In this document: positions 5,340 through 11,200 of the stretch, one piece after another | Position numbering within the stretch: the first letter of the stretch is position 1 | How the letters are laid out: each line of letters opens with the position of its first letter | Source of the DNA: Kaustia mangrovi | Lineage (GTDB): Bacteria; Pseudomonadota; Alphaproteobacteria; Rhizobiales; Im1 | Assembly: GCF_015482775.1 (NCBI RefSeq) | Contig: NZ_CP058214.1 | Span: 4,082,501 to 4,146,500 of the forward strand | Reading direction: 5' to 3' | DNA: 64,000 bases | Made by a program: the position numbers and the translations under genes | The notes under the pieces: model-generated | What the model saw: the letters and a program-made list of their open reading frames with translations, nothing else | The model's database searches: none | What the model was told of the DNA's origin: nothing

Positions 5340-6233
5340 CTACCGCCCGCCCAGTGCCTTGAAGACGCGGCTCGTCGGGGCGATGCCCATTCCGCTCTGG
5401 CAGAACCGGGCGGCGGCGAGGATGCCGTCGAGGTCGATGCCGGTCCGGTAGCCGAGGCCGTGGAGCAGGTAGACGACGTCCTCCGTCGCGACATTGCCCG
5501 CCGCTCCCGGTGCGAAGGGGCAGCCGCCGAGACCGCCCGCGGCGGCATCGACGGTGCGCACGCCGAGGCGCACGGCCTCGTACACATTGGCGACGCCCAT
5601 GCCGTATGTATCGTGGAAATGGGCGGCGATCCGGTCCGTCGGCACGATCTCCGACACCGCCCCGATCACGGCGGCGATCCGGTTCGGCGTGGCCTTGCCG
5701 AGCGTCTCGCCGAGCGCGATCTCCGCGCATCCCATGGCATCGAGCGCCTGGGCGACCTCAGCGACGGCGGCGGGCGCGACGGGGCCGGCATAGGGGCAGT
5801 CGGTGACCGTGGAGATATAGCCGCGCACGAAGAGGCCCTCCGCTCTCGCCCGCGACACGATGGGGGCGAAGCGCTCGAGCGAGGCGTCCACCGTGCAGCC
5901 GATATTCCTCTGCGCGAAGGCATCGCTCGCCGCGGTGAACACCGCGATGGCCCGGGCGCCGCGATCGAGCGCCTGGTCGAGGCCGCGCTCATTGGCGACA
6001 AGCACCATGTCGCCCGGCCGGCCGCGCGATCCGGTGGCCTCCATTACGTCGCCGGTGTCGGCCATGCGCGGCACGCGCGACGGCGAGACGAAGGCGCCGA
6101 TCTCCATCCGCTCGACACCCGCCTCGCGCAGCAGGGCGACGAGCCGCACCCGCGCTTCCGTCGCGATTGCGCCGGGCTGGGCCTGCAGCCCGTCGCGCGG
6201 GCCCACCTCGACGATGGTGACGGCCTCGGTCAT
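5340..6233 (-). CDS. mvaB: Hydroxymethylglutaryl-CoA lyase
   Basis: Cleaves HMG-CoA to acetyl-CoA and acetoacetate. 297 aa, the usual length, a single DRE-TIM barrel. Active-site elements: VGPRDGLQ at 10-17 (catalytic Arg-Asp), metal ligands in HFHDTYGMG (H205, H207), and the signature Cys238 in GGLGGCPFAPGA. The start at 6233 (MTEAVTIVEV) overlaps the HMG-CoA reductase stop as ATGA, so translation is coupled. This is the last gene of a six-gene leftward operon with a TRAP transporter. The pairing with a degradative reductase rather than with leucine-degradation genes points to mevalonate catabolism. Confidence 0.93.
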   Translation of the reverse strand: MTEAVTIVEVGPRDGLQAQPGAIATEARVRLVALLREAGVERMEIGAFVSPSRVPRMADTGDVMEATGSRGRPGDMVLVANERGLDQALDRGARAIAVFTAASDAFAQRNIGCTVDASLERFAPIVSRARAEGLFVRGYISTVTDCPYAGPVAPAAVAEVAQALDAMGCAEIALGETLGKATPNRIAAVIGAVSEIVPTDRIAAHFHDTYGMGVANVYEAVRLGVRTVDAAAGGLGGCPFAPGAAGNVATEDVVYLLHGLGYRTGIDLDGILAAARFCQSGMGIAPTSRVFKALGGR

Positions 6234-7510
6234 GTCCCGGCCCTGAGCTTCGTGAGGATGTCCTCGGCGAGATCCTGACGCACCACGCCCCGCGCCTTCA
6301 GCTCGTTCGCCACCGCGTCGATCTCCTCGCCGACCGCACCGACCATCAGTGCCACATTCTGCGCGTGGAGCGCCATGTGGCCCTTCTGGATGCCGGTGGT
6401 GGCGAGCGCACGCAGCGCGCCGAAATTCTGGGCAAGCCCGACCGCCACGATGATCCGGGCGAGCCGGTCGGCGGTCTCCACGCCGAGCACCTTGAGATTC
6501 GCCTGGGCGGTGGGGTGGATCTTCGTCGCCCCGCCGATGAGGCCGACCGCCATGGGCATCTCCAGACTGCCGACGAGATTGCCGTCCGCATCCATCTCCC
6601 AGCGCGACATGGAGCGGTAATGCCCGTCGCGCGCGGCATAGGCATGGGCGCCGGCCTCGATGGCGCGGGTGTCGTTGCCGGTCGCCAGCACCACCGCGCT
6701 CACGCCGTTCATGATGCCCTTGTTGTGGGTCGCCGCGCGATAGGGGTCGGCATCGGCGAAGCGATAGGCCGACAGCATGTCGTCGCGCACCTGCGGTCCG
6801 CCGATCTCGTCGAGCGGCCAGACCGCTCGGGCCCGTGCCACGCGCCGGTCGGCGAGGTTGGAGAGGATGCGCAGGAGCGTGCGCGCGCCGGTCCATTCGG
6901 CGAGCTTCGGCGCCAGCGCCTCGGCCATGGAATTGACCGCATTGGCGCCCATCGCGTCGCGCGTGTCGACGAGGATGTGGACGATGGTCATCGGCCCCTC
7001 CGCCGTCTCCACGACGCGCACCTCCAGATCGCGGAAGCCGCCCCCGAACTTGACGAGCAGGGGGTCGGTCCCGTCGCAGATCTCCCGGATTTCCTCCATC
7101 CGCTCGAAGACCTTGAGGCGGACATTCTCCGGATCGCTCGCGCTGAGAAGCTGGATCTGGGCGGCCATGACCGGCCCGCTTGCGGAGGTGACGAAGCCGC
7201 CCGTCGGCCGGCAGCGCTTGGCGGCGTTGCAGACCGCGGCGATGACGGAGGATTCCTCCGTCGCCATGGGAACGAGCACGTCGCGCCCGTCGACAATCAT
7301 GTTGGTCGCGATGCCGACGGGGATGGCCATGGCGGAGACGGCGTTCTCCACCAGCCGGTCGGCGAGCTCGATATGGCCCTTGGCGGCATCCTTCAGGTTC
7401 GCCACCATCTCGTTGTCGAGGCCGGCCTGGCGGGCCACGGCCTCCAGCCGGGCGTCCGGCGTCATCTTGTGAAGGCCTTCGATACGGGACGAGGTCGCGT
7501 CGCTCATCAT
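6230..7510 (-). CDS. mvaA: Class II (degradative) hydroxymethylglutaryl-CoA reductase
   Basis: Oxidises mevalonate plus CoA to HMG-CoA using NAD(P)+ in organisms that eat mevalonate; the same fold runs in reverse in mevalonate synthesis. 426 aa, matching the Pseudomonas mevalonii type. Catalytic residues fit that family: Glu in EESSV (85/86), Lys264 in THNKGIMNG, Asp280 in ATGNDTR, His378 in QKGHMALHA, and the dinucleotide-binding DAMGANAVN at 185-193. No other mevalonate-pathway gene (mevalonate kinase, HMG-CoA synthase) is nearby. HMG-CoA lyase and an uptake system are, so the catabolic direction is inferred. It follows dctM after 25 bp and overlaps mvaB by 4 bp. Confidence 0.95.
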   Translation of the reverse strand: MMSDATSSRIEGLHKMTPDARLEAVARQAGLDNEMVANLKDAAKGHIELADRLVENAVSAMAIPVGIATNMIVDGRDVLVPMATEESSVIAAVCNAAKRCRPTGGFVTSASGPVMAAQIQLLSASDPENVRLKVFERMEEIREICDGTDPLLVKFGGGFRDLEVRVVETAEGPMTIVHILVDTRDAMGANAVNSMAEALAPKLAEWTGARTLLRILSNLADRRVARARAVWPLDEIGGPQVRDDMLSAYRFADADPYRAATHNKGIMNGVSAVVLATGNDTRAIEAGAHAYAARDGHYRSMSRWEMDADGNLVGSLEMPMAVGLIGGATKIHPTAQANLKVLGVETADRLARIIVAVGLAQNFGALRALATTGIQKGHMALHAQNVALMVGAVGEEIDAVANELKARGVVRQDLAEDILTKLRAGT

Positions 7511-10583: not shown

Positions 10584-11200
10584 GGTTTCCTCCCTTGGGT
10601 TTCCTGCTTGACAGACTGAAGAAGCGCCTCCGCGACGGCCTGGCCGCCCTCGGGCACGATGATGGCGAGCGCGCGGGCGGGGGCGTCCCCGAAGGCGTCG
10701 CCGCGATGCTCCACCATGGCGTCGAAATAGAGACAGTCGCCCGGCGACAGCCGGTAGGTCCGGTCGCCGAACAGGAAGTTCACTTCGCCCTCGAGCACGT
10801 AGAACAGCTCCTGACCGGGATGGCGGAACCGTTCCTCGATCTCCAGATGGGGCTTCATCTCGATCACATAGGCCTCGATGCGTCGGTCCGACTTCCTGTA
10901 GGCGATGGCCTCGTAGGAATAGCCGCGGCCCGCTCCGTCGCGTGCGACGGAGAGGCGGTCGTCGGCGCGGACCAGCGAGATCGGCTCGGGCACGCCGATG
11001 GCGTTGACGATCTCGCCCGGCGGCACGCCGTATTCGGAGGCGAGACGCGTCAGCAGCGCGATGGACGGGGCGGCGACGTCGCGCTCCACCTTCGACAGAT
11101 GCCCCTTGGTGCTGCCGACATTGGCGGCCACCTGCTCAAGGCTCTTGCCGAGGCTGGTCCGAAGGTGCCTGAGGCGTTTTCCGAGGCTCGATCCACTCAT
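10580..11200 (-). CDS. XRE-cupin transcriptional regulator of the TRAP/mevalonate operon
   Basis: 206 aa. N-terminal helix-turn-helix (about 8-65; LGKSLEQVAANVGSTKGHLSKVE) and C-terminal cupin barrel (about 110-185; GQELFYVLEGEVNFLFGD), which normally binds the inducing small molecule. It is the first gene of the leftward operon and its stop overlaps the dctP start, so it is co-transcribed with the genes it should control. GTTTC/GAAAC repeats directly before its start codon look like its own operator. The natural inducer is presumably mevalonate or HMG-CoA (inference). Confidence 0.9.
   Translation of the reverse strand: MSGSSLGKRLRHLRTSLGKSLEQVAANVGSTKGHLSKVERDVAAPSIALLTRLASEYGVPPGEIVNAIGVPEPISLVRADDRLSVARDGAGRGYSYEAIAYRKSDRRIEAYVIEMKPHLEIEERFRHPGQELFYVLEGEVNFLFGDRTYRLSPGDCLYFDAMVEHRGDAFGDAPARALAIIVPEGGQAVAEALLQSVKQETQGRKP

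Follow-up and report, generated by a model that had tools for sequence, protein, structure and literature searches.

A predicted mevalonate uptake and catabolism operon in Kaustia mangrovi and the loci related to it

We analyzed a stretch of 64,000 nucleotides from Kaustia mangrovi (contig NZ_CP058214.1, positions 4,082,501 to 4,146,500; here referred to as the window). It carries six consecutive genes on the minus strand between positions 5340 and 11200, which very probably form an operon for the uptake and catabolism of mevalonate, a compound from which sterols and further isoprenoids are made. The genes encode an XRE-cupin transcriptional regulator, the subunits DctP, DctQ and DctM of a tripartite ATP-independent periplasmic (TRAP) transporter, a class II 3-hydroxy-3-methylglutaryl-coenzyme A (HMG-CoA) reductase and an HMG-CoA lyase. 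The same six genes had been named in an earlier note on this DNA, and both their coordinates and their families were confirmed.

The reductase (426 amino acids, 6230-7510, minus strand) matched the "degradative" equivalog TIGR00532 with 421 bits (cut-off 259.95), covering positions 17-395 of the 395 positions of the profile. Its residues 7-422 aligned with the HMG-CoA reductase of Pseudomonas mevalonii (1qax), the nearest solved structure, with an E value of 1.3e-131. At the positions of 1qax which we take to be catalytic (Glu83, Lys267, Asp283 and His381) and at the presumed NAD-specificity position Asp146, the window enzyme carries E86, K264, D280, H378 and D149. None of these residues varied among the 12 reductases aligned, in line with the earlier statement that the catalytic residues of a class II reductase are complete. 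The lyase (297 amino acids, 5340-6233, minus strand) reached 360 bits against NF004283 (cut-off 246), and its nearest solved structure was the HMG-CoA lyase 2ftp (E 2.6e-80).

The genome consists of a single contig of 4.63 Mb and is 98.3% complete. Within it the reductase is the sole match to PF00368, and for the lyase the next best place showed 29% identity and 48 bits. No HMG-CoA synthase was found in the genome by a profile search with PF01154. The one match to the GHMP kinases (PF00288) is IspE, 4-diphosphocytidyl-methylerythritol kinase (NF011202, 370 bits, cut-off 204), so that isoprenoids are made by the methylerythritol phosphate (MEP) route. The reported lack of a biosynthetic mevalonate gene hence holds genome-wide as far as tested. 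Likewise, the activation of acetoacetate, which had been left to the host, is provided for by an acetoacetyl-CoA synthetase match elsewhere in the genome (970 bits, cut-off 521). Taken together, the genome has the features of mevalonate catabolism as in P. mevalonii, namely reductase, lyase and acetoacetate activation in the absence of a biosynthetic route, and this gene content favours only the catabolic reading. As a side aspect, the operon lyase is the sole good HMG-CoA lyase of the genome, and leucine breakdown via HMG-CoA would therefore be either absent or dependent on the operon.

The opposite direction, i.e. a biosynthetic module or its remnant with a reductase making mevalonate for isoprenoids, is exceedingly improbable. 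In lactic acid bacteria, class II reductases serve biosynthesis, and a control genome of Lactococcus lactis, whose TIGR00532-type enzyme is presumably biosynthetic, passed the same cut-off. This speaks against taking the direction from the family: the name alone is no proof, and the context must supply it. With HMG-CoA synthase absent and IspE as the sole GHMP kinase the biosynthetic route was rejected. Furthermore, the lyase would destroy the precursor of such a route, and TRAP systems import.

According to the catabolic reading, DctP would bind extracellular mevalonate in the periplasm, probably together with a cation, and DctQM would import it at the expense of an ion gradient, in the manner of other TRAP systems. 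Working in the oxidative direction with NAD+ and CoA, the class II reductase would convert mevalonate into HMG-CoA, which the lyase would split into acetyl-CoA and acetoacetate. The latter would be activated to acetoacetyl-CoA by the synthetase encoded elsewhere in the genome. The XRE-cupin protein, product of the first gene of the operon, probably controls its own promoter via an inverted repeat just upstream.

All three TRAP subunits are co-oriented and each scored above its Pfam gathering score. DctP, the solute-binding protein and predicted mevalonate receptor (344 amino acids, 9549-10583, minus strand), was assigned by Pfam DctP and by the neighbours of its orthologues; its signal peptide starts twin-arginine-like. 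The small permease DctQ (169 amino acids, 8846-9355, minus strand) matched Pfam DctQ with 92 bits (gathering score 28.3), and a profile search gave no NCBIfam match for it. The large permease DctM (437 amino acids, 7536-8849, minus strand) was recognized by TIGR00786 (303 bits, cut-off 268) and by Pfam DctM.

The genes had been described as joined by overlaps or short gaps. This applies to the three junctions with 4-bp overlaps (xre/dctP with ATGA, dctQ/dctM and reductase/lyase) and to the spacing of 25 bp between dctM and the reductase gene, but not to the gap of 193 bp between dctP and dctQ. A gamma-glutamyltransferase gene at 5081-3519 was considered as a seventh member and ruled out, since it is separated by 258 bp and is not found beside the lyase in L011, the nearest related locus.

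The genome contains 30 DctP matches. A TRAP neighbour is therefore unsurprising by itself, and the argument for specificity was not based on proximity alone. We searched 72,556 plasmid records for DctP (tblastn, E 1e-30) and obtained 58 matching records, 11 of them at 63.5-82.8% identity and the other 47 at 33.8% at most. These identities set the family of the window DctP apart as a discrete one. Of the plasmid records, 37 contained the reductase, among them all 11 with a close DctP, and a comparison of the coordinates showed the two genes to share a strand and to lie no more than 2 kb apart in 11/11. These plasmids belong to Nitratireductor, Tistrella, Ruegeria, Paroceanicella, Halomonas, Allorhizobium, Ponticoccus, Sulfitobacter (three records, one strain twice) and Rhizobium. 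The hypergeometric probability of the co-occurrence was 1.2e-37 if the records are treated as independent, which they are not.

The same association was found in two genome samples searched from DctP with E limits of 1e-90 (class) and 1e-70 (phylum) and at most five scored candidates per genome. Among the 385 genomes of the class sample DctP was present in 5 and the reductase in 13, and the two were adjacent in 5/5; the five comprise three genomes of one genus as well as the window genome and represent 3 genera in all. Counted by genus, DctP stood beside the reductase in 3/3, with the reductase occurring in 9 of 277 genera (p 2.4e-5). The phylum sample (398 genomes) contained DctP in 2, one being the window genome, and the reductase in 15, again with adjacency in 2/2. 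No DctP orthologue away from a TIGR00532-type reductase was found in the plasmid, class or phylum search started from DctP. That the TRAP system feeds mevalonate catabolism had previously been proposed from operon structure; as a genomic argument, the linkage supports this far more strongly than operon structure alone.

Related loci were additionally fetched via the reductase. They comprised 80 genome loci, the best of 511 confirmed candidates by reductase similarity, and 12 plasmid loci, giving 92 in total. Neighbours were labelled by blastp to single reference proteins, with the DctP group defined by 45% identity or more and with other transporter families unseen by this procedure. Members of the DctP group were present in 20/92 loci, namely in 5/12 plasmid loci and in 15/80 genome loci, a share which is not a frequency because the loci were picked by reductase similarity and several were cut short. 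The genome loci were from Breoghania, Thalassospira, Acidovorax (two), Comamonas, Limnohabitans, Alcaligenes, Allopusillimonas, Bordetella genomosp. 7, Marinobacter (three) and three metagenome-assembled genomes (MAGs) of Methylocystaceae, Alphaproteobacteria and Deltaproteobacteria, the plasmid loci from Nitratireductor, Paroceanicella, Tistrella, Sulfitobacter and Ruegeria. Among the matches listed, Nitratireductor OM-1 had the closest enzymes and transporter (reductase 85%, DctP 83%, lyase 75%), and Breoghania was also among the closest (85%, 79% and 73%, respectively).

The gene order was dctPQM-reductase in 15 of the 20 loci and reductase-dctPQM in the other five. A divergently oriented regulator of the MocR type accompanied 17 loci, an XRE-cupin regulator two (L068 and L057), and neither was detected in one. 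The XRE-cupin protein is thus a minority regulator type among the related loci. A lyase was detected in 2/20, some loci being cut short. The claim of a self-contained unit with its own regulator was consequently overstated as far as a fixed arrangement is concerned. Regarding the six-gene order, for which a search in other genomes had been proposed, an xre-cupin gene followed by dctPQM and the reductase gene was recovered in L068 only among the 20; the XRE-cupin protein there is 41% identical and a lyase was not detected.

Since the partner that stays constant is the reductase rather than the lyase, a substrate in need of oxidation by HMG-CoA reductase is to be expected, which points to mevalonate. 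The gene set bears as well on the possibility that the TRAP system imports another acid degraded via HMG-CoA, such as free 3-hydroxy-3-methylglutarate (HMG) or a branched-chain acid, with the reductase being incidental. The operon does contain the lyase which such acids would need, and receptors of the subfamily of DctP bind several short hydroxy and keto acids. However, substrates of the HMG or leucine type need a lyase together with a CoA ligase or CoA transferase rather than a reductase; the six genes include no such ligase or transferase, and it is the reductase that accompanies the DctP group in each case of the searches started from DctP. Import of free HMG was rejected since the lyase is not a constant partner of the group, and we regard this explanation as a whole as quite improbable.

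To place the transporters on the phylogeny of the enzyme, a tree was built from 46 of 93 reductases, each with one of four transporter types in its locus; the 47 without a detected type were omitted. The types were the TRAP system of the window (21 reductases), a tripartite tricarboxylate transporter (12), an ABC-type (ATP-binding cassette) binding protein (9) and a second TRAP system (4). Three of the nine ABC labels (L063, L073 and L078) refer to genes at a distance of 2.3 to 5.3 kb from the reductase gene, of which two lie on the opposite strand. For the window-type TRAP 9 changes were needed on the tree, at least 6 of which were forced by well-supported branches. A single clade was rejected by the approximately unbiased test (p-AU 4e-45), a test made after the grouping had shown on a quick tree. 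In Ruegeria, Sulfitobacter, Paroceanicella and Tistrella the reductases are 50-54% identical to that of the window and the DctPs 63-71%. On the basis of this tree the window-type TRAP is repeatedly re-paired with different reductase lineages. A receptor which re-joins different reductase lineages and was found nowhere else in the samples is best explained by a substrate shared with the reductase.

Genomic linkage by itself cannot separate mevalonate from mevalonolactone or mevaldate, closely related C6 compounds. One of these might be the true substrate, or the importer might be of broad specificity with mevalonate as one of several hydroxy acids. For the latter speaks that the relatives TakP and eLACCO1 each bind more than one acid (PMC1839085, PMC8648760; papers given by PMC number are cited here and below from excerpts). 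Neither a lactonase nor a further dehydrogenase, however, is among the six genes, and an importer of broad specificity should also turn up next to genes of other pathways, where no orthologue was seen in the samples searched. This group of alternatives appears very improbable to us.

The predicted structure of DctP (AlphaFold monomer) had a mean predicted local distance difference test (pLDDT) score of 85.1. It matched the lactate receptor structures 2zzv and 2zzx with Z scores of 37.9 and 38.2, respectively, and the keto-acid receptor TakP (2hzl) with 33.9. The former represent TTHA0766, the lactate-calcium TRAP receptor of Thermus thermophilus, which is the closest solved relative of DctP (sequence E 2.6e-62; 36% identity over 313 residues in the structure match). 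TTHA0766 shares with DctP the pocket Arg, an Asp equal to D214 and a Gln equal to Q240. It differs by Phe and Asn at the positions aligned with R215 and E157, respectively, and its ligand is a 2-hydroxy acid with calcium. Among the solved-structure matches listed, no mevalonate ligand was named.

TakP (also SmoM; 2hzk, 2hzl), the sodium-dependent 2-keto acid TRAP receptor of Rhodobacter sphaeroides, shares the fold at 28% identity. It binds its ligand by Arg177 and Tyr100 and the cation by Glu214, Glu240, Gln156 and, through its main chain, Trp215 (PMC1839085). Arg177 and Tyr100 are kept in DctP at identical numbers, whereas Glu214, Trp215, Glu240 and Gln156 correspond to D214, R215, Q240 and probably E157. 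The pairing of E157 with Gln156 comes from MAFFT and is alignment-dependent; residue 156 of DctP, the alternative partner, varies between Q, E, P and A in the group and from this variation is unlikely to be a ligand. R177, Y100, D214, Q240, R215 and E157 were all invariant in 20/20 group members. The cation cage of DctP would accordingly appear to keep two negative charges, one of them moved, with the same net charge as in TakP on different residues. It is thus plausible that the carboxylate is chelated together with the cation and that the 3-hydroxyl of mevalonate replaces the keto or 2-hydroxyl oxygen.

Several of these observations weigh against mevalonate as the ligand and against the operon reading in general. 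The cation ligands of TakP are not conserved as such, their places being taken by D214, Q240 and probably E157. The nearest solved relatives bind 2-hydroxy or 2-keto acids and mevalonate is a 3-hydroxy acid. In addition, the sensitivity of the TTHA0766-based sensor eLACCO1 to 3-hydroxybutyrate was some 320-fold below that to lactate (PMC8648760). Finally, gene content, gene order, families and the linkage of the DctP family to the reductase are observations, from which the substrate, the direction of the reductase, the use of a cation and the regulation are predicted.

The pathway as such is already known. The mevalonate catabolism of P. mevalonii (mvaAB) consists of a class II HMG-CoA reductase and an HMG-CoA lyase, both of which are also found in the window operon, and the mvaAB operon is, as we assume, accompanied by a LysR-type regulator. 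To our knowledge no gene has been assigned to mevalonate uptake in P. mevalonii. In the window, on the other hand, the two enzyme genes share an operon with those for an XRE-cupin protein and a TRAP transporter, which precede them. Growth of P. mevalonii on mevalonate as the sole carbon source, with oxidation by NAD+ through the class II reductase, is established (PMC13412983).

Searches of the open-licence literature, judged largely by titles and the beginnings of abstracts, turned up no bacterial transporter gene with mevalonate as its assigned substrate, and TRAP ligand screens outside that scope might list a mevalonate binder. Import systems for mevalonate are said to exist in several bacterial species, and a yeast importer was evolved from JEN1 (PMC12405511, published in 2025). 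In the excerpts of two further papers the TRAP systems tested for malonate (PMC10403917) and the non-mevalonate route mentioned (PMC6018831) are unrelated to mevalonate import. The operon is thus a well-supported variant of the known pathway with a dedicated importer so far unassigned within the literature searched.

Combining pocket, linkage and tree, we consider it fairly probable that the DctP group is a dedicated family of mevalonate TRAP receptors with a re-wired cation cage (D214, E157, Q240 and the new R215). Mevalonate catabolism would then be modular, its reductase having been re-paired again and again with four or more types of transporter (this TRAP, the second TRAP, tripartite tricarboxylate and ABC) and two or more types of regulator (MocR and XRE-cupin), in part on plasmids. 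If this is true, bacterial mevalonate import gains a molecular identity, several times over. It would also supply a rule for annotating proteins that bear the generic name "TRAP transporter substrate-binding protein DctP". The laboratory strain Ruegeria pomeroyi DSS-3, with the DctP orthologue SPO_RS20650 and the reductase SPO_RS20655, would offer a locus for tests. Isoprenoid biotechnology would gain an importer and possibly a sensor, and soil and sea bacteria which feed on an isoprenoid precursor released by others could be recognized by a marker.

The loci with other transporters contain the same reductase family as the window, often together with a lyase and a divergent MocR regulator. In Lichenicola, Roseomonas and Rhizobium etli the TIGR00532-type reductase is accompanied by a tripartite tricarboxylate transporter instead of the window-type TRAP. 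Permease genes of this kind, no more than 0.6 kb away from the frame of the reductase, occur in Proteobacteria as well as in Bacillota (Brevibacillus, Fusibacter and Eubacterium). The loci concerned are L013, L014, L018, L097, L101 and L109, then L075, L096, L060 and L074, and L050 and L056; Pfam TctA was checked for L013 and L050. By their position, these permeases are candidates for a second kind of mevalonate importer.

Azospirillum and Afipia carry an ABC-type binding protein in place of the window-type TRAP. Its gene is located directly 3' of the reductase gene in these two as well as in Bradyrhizobium, Methylobacterium and a MAG (L012, L035, L039, L040, L044 and L046; Pfam Peripla_BP_6 checked for L012) and is a candidate for a third kind of importer.

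A different TRAP system stands beside a TIGR00532-type reductase in Sagittula (L015, 4225-9275), Salipiger and Rhodovulum (L058 and L059), and the DctP of Sagittula is only 27% identical to that of the window. A short-chain dehydrogenase gene is inserted between dctM and the reductase gene in Sagittula, and frames of similar size occur in Salipiger and Rhodovulum. The substrate in these three is possibly mevaldate or another branched hydroxy acid.

On plasmids of halophilic archaea (L022, 7998-11428, and NZ_CP144462) the same reductase type is paired with a gene of the AtuA (acyclic terpene utilisation) family. In Salinigranum the two genes overlap by 4 bp, and in the Halalkalicoccus record both lie under the match.

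The regulator gene of the window (206 amino acids, 10580-11200, minus strand) was assigned by Pfam HTH_31/HTH_3 and Cupin_2. The protein contains helix-turn-helix (HTH) and cupin domains as in PuuR-like XRE-cupin autoregulators, and scored 54.5 bits against the PuuR equivalog, below the cut-off of 211. The counterpart in L068 is encoded at the same position. No orthologue with at least 60% identity was found in 760 plasmid records by tblastn.

The leader of the operon contains an inverted repeat, GATGTTTC-N7-GAAACATC, at 11208-11230, with a further half-site that extends into the xre start codon (11199-11230 in total, minus strand). The reduced pattern GTTTN5TATGAAAC has a single occurrence in the window, against an expectation of 0.00. 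Of 128 loci two contain it, namely L111, where the site is the same one, and L068, where it lies in the xre leader of the operon XRE-cupin-dctPQM-reductase. That the pattern was taken post hoc from these two leaders themselves counts against it, and it was absent from L057 and L075, the loci of more distant XRE-cupin genes. The repeat is put forward solely as a candidate operator. A scan found no sigma-70 promoter (0.6 in shuffles), and the one terminator-like site (2.0 in shuffles) lies inside the xre gene.

The MocR-type regulator of the related loci, which combines a GntR domain with an aminotransferase fold (L011, 3541-4947, and 16 other loci), is present although a metabolite linked to pyridoxal phosphate (PLP) is not evident in the mevalonate pathway. 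A tblastn search with the two MocR reference proteins, confined to the window, was without a match at E 1e-3.

The gap between dctP and dctQ (9356-9548) measures only 65 bp in L011. In the window, folding predicted a very stable hairpin (-125.9 kcal/mol, z -9.4), with 0 of 200 shuffles as low. The underlying element at 9379-9505 is a bipartite hairpin repeat, CCCTCTCCC...GGGAGAGGG, which is scattered through the genome, often as two halves approximately 50 bp apart. One half matched 54 places in the genome, and a control with the reversed pattern matched 0. Intergenic repeats are also known between malE and malF of E. coli. By analogy to these, the hairpin may shift the balance of the subunits towards more binding protein per membrane subunit. 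Another copy of the hairpin was located at C1:4067602, immediately past the match to another dctP (C1:4067726-4068553, minus strand).

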